Of a stretch of DNA of 64,000 nucleotides, positions 55,159-57,656 are shown in pieces. The DNA comes from Actinacidiphila glaucinigra. Its GTDB lineage: Bacteria; Actinomycetota; Actinomycetes; Streptomycetales; Streptomycetaceae. The stretch is taken from the NCBI RefSeq assembly GCF_900188405.1, contig NZ_FZOF01000003.1:124001-188000 (forward strand), written 5' to 3'. The translations under genes and the position numbers were made by a program. Every line of letters starts with the position of its first letter. Position 1 is the first letter of the stretch. Below the pieces are notes generated by a model. That model was not told the DNA's origin. It did no database searches and saw only the letters and a list, made by a program, of their open reading frames with translations.

Positions 55159-55923
55159 GTGGCGTCAGACCGCGCCGGGGGCGTGCAGTCCCTCGAACGC
55201 GCCTTCGACCTGCTGGAGCGGATGGCCGACGCGGGCGGCGAGGTGGGCCTCAGCGAACTGTCCGCGAGCAGCGGGCTGCCGCTGCCCACGATCCACCGGC
55301 TGATGCGCACCCTGGTCGACTGCGGCTACGTACGCCAGCAGCCCAACCGCCGCTACGCGCTGGGGCCCCGGCTGATCCGCCTCGGCGAGAGCTCGGCCCG
55401 CCTCCTGGGCACCTGGGCCCGCCCCTATCTGGCGGAGCTGGTCGAGGCGACCGGCGAGACCGCCAACATGGCGCTCCTGGACGGCGACGAGGTCGTCTAC
55501 GTCGCCCAGGTCCCCTCACGGCACTCGATGCGGATGTTCACCGAGGTCGGACGGCGGGTCCTGCCGCACTCCACGGGCGTCGGCAAGGCCCTGCTGGCGC
55601 ACGTCCCGCCGGAGGAGGTACGCGCCCTGCTGGCCCGCACCGGGATGCCGGCGGCCACCGAGCGGACCATCGTCGACCCGGACGCCTTCCTCGCGGAACT
55701 GGAGCACATCCGCGCCCAGGGCTACGCCGTCGACGACAACGAGCAGGAGGTCGGGGTCCGCTGCCTGGCGGTCACCGTCCCCGACTCCCCGACGGCCGCC
55801 GCCATTTCCATCTCCGGACCCGCCGGACGGGTGACCGAGGCGGCCACGGAGAAGATCGTGCCGGTGCTGCAGGGCGTGGCACGGCAGCTGTCGACCGCGC
55901 TGGCCAGCAACGGGACGCCCTGA
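55159..55923 (+). CDS. allR: IclR-family regulator of allantoin genes (AllR-like)
   Basis: A 254-residue IclR protein. The HTH (residues ~10-65: VQSLERAFDLLERMADAGGEVGLSELSASSGLPLPTIHRLMRTL) precedes the effector domain with VYVAQVPSRHSMRMFTEVGRRVLPHSTGVGKALLAHVP and GYAVDDNEQEVGVRCLAVTVP, including the conserved late cysteine. It is divergent from allB-alc. AllR proteins sense allantoin or glyoxylate; which one cannot be read here. GTG start with GAGGAAA upstream. Confidence 0.92.
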   Translation: MASDRAGGVQSLERAFDLLERMADAGGEVGLSELSASSGLPLPTIHRLMRTLVDCGYVRQQPNRRYALGPRLIRLGESSARLLGTWARPYLAELVEATGETANMALLDGDEVVYVAQVPSRHSMRMFTEVGRRVLPHSTGVGKALLAHVPPEEVRALLARTGMPAATERTIVDPDAFLAELEHIRAQGYAVDDNEQEVGVRCLAVTVPDSPTAAAISISGPAGRVTEAATEKIVPVLQGVARQLSTALASNGTP

Positions 55924-56774
55924 ACGCACGCGGTCGGCGCGGCGGCCGCGCCGGTGGCCGCGCCGGTGGGCGGGTGCGGGTTCGTCCCGCGCCCTTCGGG
56001 CGCGAAGCGGCCGGCTGCGGACGGGAGCGTGGGGCGCACGGCCGGTCGGCGGTGTGCGGGCGGGTTCGCGGTGGGGGTTCGGGCTCCGCAGCGGGCTGCC
56101 TTTCCGTCGGCGTGGGTCTCGTTGCCGTCCGCGGGTGCAGACGGCCGCTTCCACGCCTTCGGTGGGTGGTGGGCGCGCCCGCCGCGACCGGCGTCTGCGG
56201 CTGCTCCGGGGTGCTGTCGAGCGGCGGGCGCAAGATCGGGCCCGCTTGCGCCGACATGTTCGGTGGAACAGAGCCCGATCTCGGAAGTCCACCCACCGAG
56301 CCCCGTGCCTGCCGGGGAAGCTCCCGCAGACGCAGGTCAGGGCGGGCGCGCCACCCACAAAGGGTGGGCGTGGTACCGGCCGTCTGCACCCGCGGACGGC
56401 GACGAGACCGCAACCGTACGAGCAACCGGCCCCGCTCCGGCGTCGAACCCCCGCCACGAACCCACCCGCACCGCGCCGAGAAGGGCGCGAGACGACGGGA
56501 AAGCCGCCCAGCGACGCCTGCCACGCCCTGCGCCGCGCTGGAGTGCCGGCCGGGGGGACCCGCCGCACCGGGAAGCCGAGGTGGCCGCGGACGCCGCGAA
56601 AGCCGGGGCCCACATCGGGCCGAGGGCGGACCCGCACGGCCGGGGCCGCGTCGGCAGCGTGGGCAGCGGTAACCGCACAGGCACGTCGTCGTGCCGCCGC
56701 GGCGGCTTGACCTCGAGCGCACTCCAAGGCCTACGGTCGTCACCGTAGCGACCACGACCCCGGACGGGGGGACC
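55924..56774. other. 851-base gene-free block containing a long palindrome
   Basis: No gene is supported on either strand. Open frames exist in all directions, but they are arginine/proline/alanine-rich and mirror one another because the DNA is palindromic (both strands translate to LVAVRGCRRP in one frame). See the repeat entry at 56050-56475. The right part (56480-56774) holds only the promoter of the LLM gene. Confidence 0.7.
56050..56475. repeat. Long imperfect palindrome (about 425 bp) centred near 56262
   Basis: The two halves are imperfect reverse complements. The best arm, 56116-56146 (from GTCTCGTTGCCGTCCGCGGG to GCAGACGGCC), matches the complement of 56378-56408 in 30 of 31 positions. 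Outer arms 56062-56081 and 56444-56463 match 18 of 20. Inner arms around 56175-56200 and 56320-56352 and AGATCGGGC/GCCCGATCT near the centre also correspond. All pairs share one centre, so it is a single folded-back structure, with small indels. Confidence 0.8.
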
Positions 56775-57656
56775 ATGCAACTGGGCTTGCACCTCACGAA
56801 GTTCGACCATCCCGCAGGACCGGCCGGGCTCGCGCCCGCGCTGGCCGCGGCAGGCGAGGCCGCCGAGTCGGCCGGCGCGGGCTGGCTGTCGGTGATGGAC
56901 CACTACTTCCAGATGGAGAACAACGGCGGCGCCGAGGCCGCCATGCTGGAGGCCTACACGACGCTGGGCTTCCTCGCCGCCCGGACCTCCTCCGTGCGGC
57001 TCGGCGTCCTCGTCACGGGGGTCACCTACCGCCACCCCGGCCTGCTGGCGAAGATCGCGACCACCCTCGACGTCCTGTCCGGCGGGCGGGCGACCCTGGG
57101 GCTCGGCGCGGCCTGGTACGAGCGTGAGCACCTGGGCCTGGGCGTGCCCTTCCCGGCGCTCGCGGAGCGCTTCGAACGGCTGGAGGAGACCCTGCGGATC
57201 TGCCTGCAGATGTGGGACGGGGACGACGACGGCCCCTTCGAGGGCACGCACTACTCCCTGGCGGAGACCCGCAGCGCCCCGGCCTCGGTGAGCACACCCC
57301 GCCCGGAGATCATGATCGGGGGCGGCGGTGAGCGCAAGACGCTCCGCCTGGTCGCCCGGTACGCGGACGCCTGCAACCTCTTCGCCTCCTCGGCCGCCGA
57401 GGTCGCGCACAAGCTGGACGTGCTGCGCGCCCACTGCGACGAGGCCGGACGCGACTACGAGCGGATCCGCAAGACCATGCTCTTCGTCGGCGACTCCATC
57501 CGCGACGGCGACACCGACGCCTTCGTCGCCGACATGGCCGGCTACGCCAAGCTCGGCGTCGACACGGTCATCGTGGTGCCGCCGGACGCCGAGCCGGCCG
57601 GCTGGATCGACAGCCACTGCGCACCGGCCGTCCCCCGGCTGGCCGAACTCGGCTGA
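56775..57656 (+). CDS. LLM-class F420/flavin-dependent oxidoreductase
   Basis: A 293-residue luciferase-like monooxygenase-fold protein, F420-binding subclass. Supporting parts are MQLGLHLTKFDHP, GWLSVMDHYFQ, ARTSSVRLGVLVTGVTYRHPGLLAKIATTLDVLSGGRATLGLGAAWYEREH (the classical LLM block), and PEIMIGGGGERKTLRLVARYADACNL. Its hydride-transfer substrate is unknown. It is monocistronic, and convergent with the small gene at 57679 across a terminator. Confidence 0.92.
   Translation: MQLGLHLTKFDHPAGPAGLAPALAAAGEAAESAGAGWLSVMDHYFQMENNGGAEAAMLEAYTTLGFLAARTSSVRLGVLVTGVTYRHPGLLAKIATTLDVLSGGRATLGLGAAWYEREHLGLGVPFPALAERFERLEETLRICLQMWDGDDDGPFEGTHYSLAETRSAPASVSTPRPEIMIGGGGERKTLRLVARYADACNLFASSAAEVAHKLDVLRAHCDEAGRDYERIRKTMLFVGDSIRDGDTDAFVADMAGYAKLGVDTVIVVPPDAEPAGWIDSHCAPAVPRLAELG

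Follow-up and report, generated by a model that had tools for sequence, protein, structure and literature searches.

The long palindrome between an IclR-family regulator gene and a luciferase-like monooxygenase gene in the window (the whole analyzed stretch of DNA, 64,000 nucleotides) is probably a decayed copy of a non-autonomous, MITE-like foldback transposable element. Related sequences were found at 33 loci of the window's own genome and element-free sites in its relatives, which agrees with the initial annotation's suspicion of an old mobile element. The label MITE-like was chosen because no parent transposase with the same ends was found, and a lost or divergent parent is conceivable.

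Structure of the window copy and its repeat family

An inverted-repeat search placed the center of the palindrome at position 56262, and the arms of the foldback of about 425 bp first reported there were recovered. The interval originally proposed, 56050-56475, does contain palindromic sequence but was too narrow, and the end motifs together with the alignment to the family consensus gave a true extent of about 55965-56513, with end B on the left and a degraded end A on the right. The earlier span was limited because the right arm, compared with the consensus, has a 48-bp deletion near 56479 that took away the partner of the outer left part (approximately 55990-56045), so that this part had seemed unpaired. 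End B (GGTGGGCGGGTGCGGGTTCGTCCCGCGCCCTTCGGGCGC, plus strand, two mismatches to the motif) occupies 55965-56003 and includes the subterminal hairpin at 55989-56003 (plus strand), while the degraded end A (56474-56513, minus strand, 12 mismatches to the motif) adjoins the deletion. Between the ends, an outer block pairs 56046-56081 (plus) with 56444-56479 (minus) over 36 nt at 86% complementarity, an inner block pairs 56115-56205 (plus) with 56319-56409 (minus) over 91 nt at 82%, and a central inverted repeat at 56233-56281 flanks the loop with arms 56233-56254 and 56260-56281 (77% complementary). By eye, the strongest paired stretch is GGTCTCGTTGCCGTCCGCGGGTGCAGACGGCCG, which agrees with its partner at 32 of 33 positions. 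The folding energy of 56000-56520 was −363 kcal/mol, compared with −292 for shuffled sequences (SD 8.1; z = −8.8), and 0 of 100 shuffles folded as well.

The element starts around 41 bp past the stop codon of the upstream regulator gene (55159-55923, plus strand; designated allR in the initial annotation). The downstream monooxygenase gene (56775-57656, plus strand) has a start inferred by the gene caller, in a reading frame open from 56691. The palindrome itself had been described as free of genes, and indeed no protein domain was found by Pfam in the three long frames crossing the window copy.

When positions 55920-56560 were used to query the window's own genome (G000; 9.8 Mb in 80 contigs), 123 matches were obtained, corresponding to 33 main loci including the window and a few marginal short ones. 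The other loci were examined as 8-kb segments designated L060 to L091. Each copy matched on both strands because the element is palindromic. Full palindromes of about 510-670 bp were found at 27 of the 33 loci, a truncated copy at one (L075), a fragment at another (L087), and single arms at four (L063, L080, L083, and L086). This search, which the initial annotation had recommended, substantiated its repeated family and removed the alternative of a single-copy sequence. An internal-arm pattern with up to three mismatches had 49 matches in G000, all within known loci, and the census is therefore close to complete. The 569-bp family consensus is 91% self-complementary, and the 28 palindromic copies are 80-90% identical to it, with a mean pairwise identity of 79% and a best pair of 87%. 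The LVAVRGCRRP proteins, which the initial annotation had likened to hypothetical proteins of other Streptomyces genomes, are frames of the repeat, and so are open reading frames predicted across the element. Going by exact matches to the end motifs, the family is not spread through Streptomyces generally.

Two types of outer end were recognized, A (GGTGGTTCGGCTGTCSCGCCGTCTCGCGCCCTNCGGGCGC) and B (GGTGGGTGGGTGCGGGTTCGTCTCGCGCCCTTCGGGCGC), and in full elements two ends face one another, in the combination A..A or A..B. Both types share a subterminal hairpin, GCGCCC-TTC-GGGCGC, with a 6-bp stem and a 3-base loop. It appears in the conserved ends as GCGCCCTTCGGGCGC, with the end-hairpin sequence GTCTCGCGCCCTTCGGGCGC, and is preceded by CGTC. 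The end block containing the hairpin is about 95% conserved, and conservation is only 71-87% over the three 20-bp blocks that follow. In a subfamily (L068:3638-4233, L071:3696-3734, and L082:4576-4615), the end hairpin reads GCTCCCTTCGGTCGC in place of GCGCCCTTCGGGCGC; this paired change disrupts two stem pairs, yet is seen in several copies. As initially noted for the window, no target-site duplication was seen at this or any other copy when all flanks were listed; no young copy is present, and such duplications fade with age. A CTAG duplication candidate at L082 was dropped, as the other loci did not have it.

The many dispersed non-coding copies with inverted-repeat ends, and their presence or absence at orthologous sites, are characteristic of MITEs. 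The family is apparently undescribed and adds a new MITE-like foldback to an already known kind of genomic parasite. A literature search whose coverage excluded most subscription papers yielded no description of this foldback family.

The distribution of the family is narrow. G000 contains 35 matches to motif A and 17 to motif B. Motif A had a single further match in G001, the closest relative, and none in 33 other genomes of the genus, and motif B had one in G028. The internal-arm pattern at the same tolerance occurred once in G001 and never in the 33 other congeners. An exact scan of the end motifs in 84,980 species genomes, a collection that may omit records very near the window's genome, matched outside that genome only Actinacidiphila oryziradicis and Streptomyces humicola; the matched A. 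oryziradicis contig is the G028 contig, and the window itself most likely comes from an Actinacidiphila. The viral, plasmid, and phage collections contained no match to the element. G001 retains two partial copies, one at the ortholog of L060 and one at that of L087. The G000 copy at L060 resembles its G001 counterpart no more closely than it does its paralogs.

Orthologous sites, age, and proposed mobility

The coding DNA of G001 is around 92% identical to that of G000, and four-fold sites differ by 16.7%. Among 11 matched palindromic or fragment loci of G000, the element was absent from G001 at nine, including the window locus, which measures approximately 105 bp in G001 and 787 bp in G000. 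At L081, L082, L090, and L091, the matching flanks in G001 were separated by only 5-51 bp, whereas at L061, L085, L088, and L089 G001 had other sequence in place of the element. The search for empty sites in close relatives, which had been suggested as a check, was thus successful. The junctions with the empty sites are unclean, as the sequence from the stop codon to the end of the element usually cannot be aligned, and consequently the exact inserted segment cannot be given.

The gene pair at L090 had a short spacer or none, and no element, in G001, G029, G010, G016, G023, G027, G033, and G004, so that this copy was gained in the G000 lineage. At the other sites, the presumed polarity is based on the congeners lacking the family. 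The G001 counterpart of L085 (L135:15894-17268) is a coding-like sequence of about 1.4 kb between the same neighbors, and near its right end lies GGTGCCGGTGGGTGGGTGCCGG, which resembles the outer end of the family. At L089, a second foldback family is found in G001 where the window's family is found in G000. At the convergent L090 site, G028 has a different spacer (L163, between the matches at 1310 and 1501), which is about 190 bp long and contains inverted repeats of its own, GGCGTTGTG...CACAACGCC. In this genus, hairpin repeats may generally settle at the ends of convergent genes.

The copies differ by about 14% from the consensus and about 21% from one another, which indicates an old burst. 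Assuming that the rate of spacer evolution does not exceed that of four-fold sites, the burst was roughly as old as the split between G000 and G001, or somewhat older.

In the proposed mechanism, an enzyme acting in trans (a transposase or a nuclease), which was lost or not found, would recognize the conserved ends, and the family would have spread in a burst at about the time when the G001 lineage split off, or later. Copies inserted behind genes would have survived or been preferred, at sites that presumably tolerate a 600-bp hairpin. No autonomous partner was found, as the end-motif matches in G000 were all in known non-coding copies. Transposition and its date were not seen directly, given the lack of a transposase, a duplication, and an autonomous copy, the unclean junctions, the age of the copies, and the relations of the L060 copy.

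Position behind genes and decay of the arms

The neighboring genes were identified using a simple home-made codon-usage caller, and placement was counted for 29 copies, excluding those with a single arm. Convergent gene pairs flanked 18 copies, compared with 12% of all neighboring pairs (p = 3e-10), and gene 3′ ends made up 45 of the 58 flanks (p = 1.5e-5), where the p-values ignore errors of the caller. Nine further copies were located between tandem genes and two between divergent genes. The gap to the element was typically 5-50 bp after 3′ ends and typically more than 100 bp ahead of gene starts. REP families likewise sit behind genes (PMC3733652), and the placement therefore fits a tolerance of, or a preference for, insertion behind genes.

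The same placement could also be read as function. The element would then be a bidirectional transcription-terminating or 3′-end-stabilizing element under selection, in which each arm provides a hairpin and a G-rich tail behind a gene and two back-to-back arms serve convergent genes. Besides the convergent pairs, the excess of 3′ ends, and the short gaps, this explanation is favored by the strong folding and by the single arms found behind genes in relatives. We nevertheless consider it rather unlikely, since relatives manage without the element between the corresponding genes, a tolerance of insertions would lead to the placement just as well, REP families being placed alike (PMC3733652), and the arms show neither covariation nor a G.U bias.

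The latter point comes from a pairing test in which the partners were fixed from the consensus. Bases were paired at 76.6% within an element, and combining left and right arms from different copies gave 75.7%. The two arms thus decay as independent sequence, which argues against a maintained RNA or cruciform, whereas an incidental effect on transcription stays compatible. Mismatches of the G.T and A.C types were equally frequent (293 vs. 283), indicating no selection at the RNA level on either strand. Double changes exceeded the expectation under independence (208 vs. 93), and this excess was attributed to shared subfamily variants because pairing between copies was almost equally high. A free self-alignment had given 81-90% self-complementarity per copy, which looked like co-evolving arms, but the effect disappeared with consensus-fixed pairing.

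An Rfam search of the element gave nothing near threshold, and no canonical terminator (a stem-loop followed by a T run) was found in it. The family therefore shows neither the compensatory changes between arms nor the known-family match of a structured RNA, and the RNA-structure or terminator reading of the initial annotation was not sustained. Covariation between the arms is absent, which it had named as a refuting condition, but this speaks against structural selection only and not against a mobile element. The independent decay of the arms is as expected of inert insertions, and under the preferred interpretation, a decayed MITE-like foldback, the element would block read-through between convergent genes only incidentally, if at all.

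An origin from a REP/BIME-like or IS200/IS605-derived family, in which a Y1 (HUH) transposase acts on the subterminal hairpins in single-stranded DNA, also seems unlikely. It would account for these hairpins, the lack of target duplication, and the REP-like placement behind genes, and two Y1 transposase genes are present in G000. Neither has the family ends beside it, and a Y1/RAYT-type transposase was consequently rejected as the parent. Moreover, the element is far larger than REPs, and its hairpin is unlike that of the CGTC class, which has a stem of 8-9 bp and a loop of 4-5 bases (PMC3733652). A chance inverted repeat or decayed-gene remnant is extremely improbable. Long open frames cross the element in several phases, as expected in high-GC DNA, and count in its favor, but the copy number of the family refutes it, and the folding far beyond that of shuffles and the three crossing frames without a Pfam match also speak against it.

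A second foldback family and comparison with known systems

A second foldback family, with elements of 400-1300 bp, is bounded by inverted pairs of GTGCGGGTTGTTTGCGCCTGCGGCGGGC ends that are separated by roughly 240-1300 bp, as in L086:3281-4439 (G000) and L138:13627-14181 (G001). Its ends were found 54 times in G000, 55 times in G001, and not in 33 other congeners, with two lone matches among 115 genomes of the other genera of the bacterial family. It is similar to the window's family in its inverted end pairs and, by eye, in its outer end GGTKGNTGNGTGCGGGT, which resembles end B and is followed by a GC-rich hairpin, but has a different interior and is about equally abundant in G001.

The four single arms of the window's family sit inside copies of this second family. 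Each of these copies contains a fragment consisting of the galK 3′ end, a spacer, and one arm of the window element (L063:4054-4455, L080:3884-4369, L083:3678-4160, and L086:3578-3982; 82-98% identical to the galK locus L064). In L080 and L083, around 490 bp match L064 at 86-87%, and L063 and L086 have the same match with an internal gap. Judging from these alignments, a piece of host DNA was captured by the second family and then multiplied, and this multiplied capture is the best evidence that foldbacks of such build move. We tentatively propose, with more doubt than confidence, that large foldbacks with related ends (GGTKGNTGNGTGCGGGT and a GC-rich hairpin) might form a superfamily that targets convergent gene 3′ ends, moves without target duplication by an unrecognized, probably hairpin-recognizing enzyme, and captures host gene ends. 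If true, it would be a bacterial counterpart of gene-capturing (Pack-type) MITEs.

Unusually long spacers downstream of genes in this lineage are explained by inserted copies of a large palindromic repeat, which is missing from a sister species at the same gene pairs. With their two foldback families, G000 and G001 form a natural pair for studying the tolerance of dozens of half-kilobase palindromes, and allow one to ask which enzyme spreads foldbacks and whether convergent genes become insulated.

Eukaryotic foldback transposons, such as Tetris, consist mostly of long inverted arms. They belong to another domain of life, and no relation is claimed. IS200/IS605-type elements share with the window's family a subterminal hairpin near each end and the lack of target duplication, but the latter has long inverted arms, no coding copy, and no Y1 gene with its ends. 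REP/BIME elements and CGTC- or GTAG-tagged palindromes are also palindromic, intergenic, and located mostly between convergent or tandem genes near 3′ ends, and the window's family likewise has CGTC before its hairpin. However, REPs are units of 20-40 bp (PMC3733652), while the window's family measures 570 bp, its 6-bp stem and 3-base loop do not match the CGTC class, and no RAYT gene with such ends was found. Prokaryotic MITEs, for example Chunjie of Geobacter and QMITE1/2 of Coxiella, typically stay below 500 bp and have terminal repeats that measure about 4-30 bp (PMC10969869). While the window's family differs from them in being palindromic over nearly its whole 570 bp and in having no target duplication and no known parent, it shares with them the non-coding, dispersed, and mostly intergenic copies, numbering in the tens, and the inverted-repeat ends conserved above the interior.
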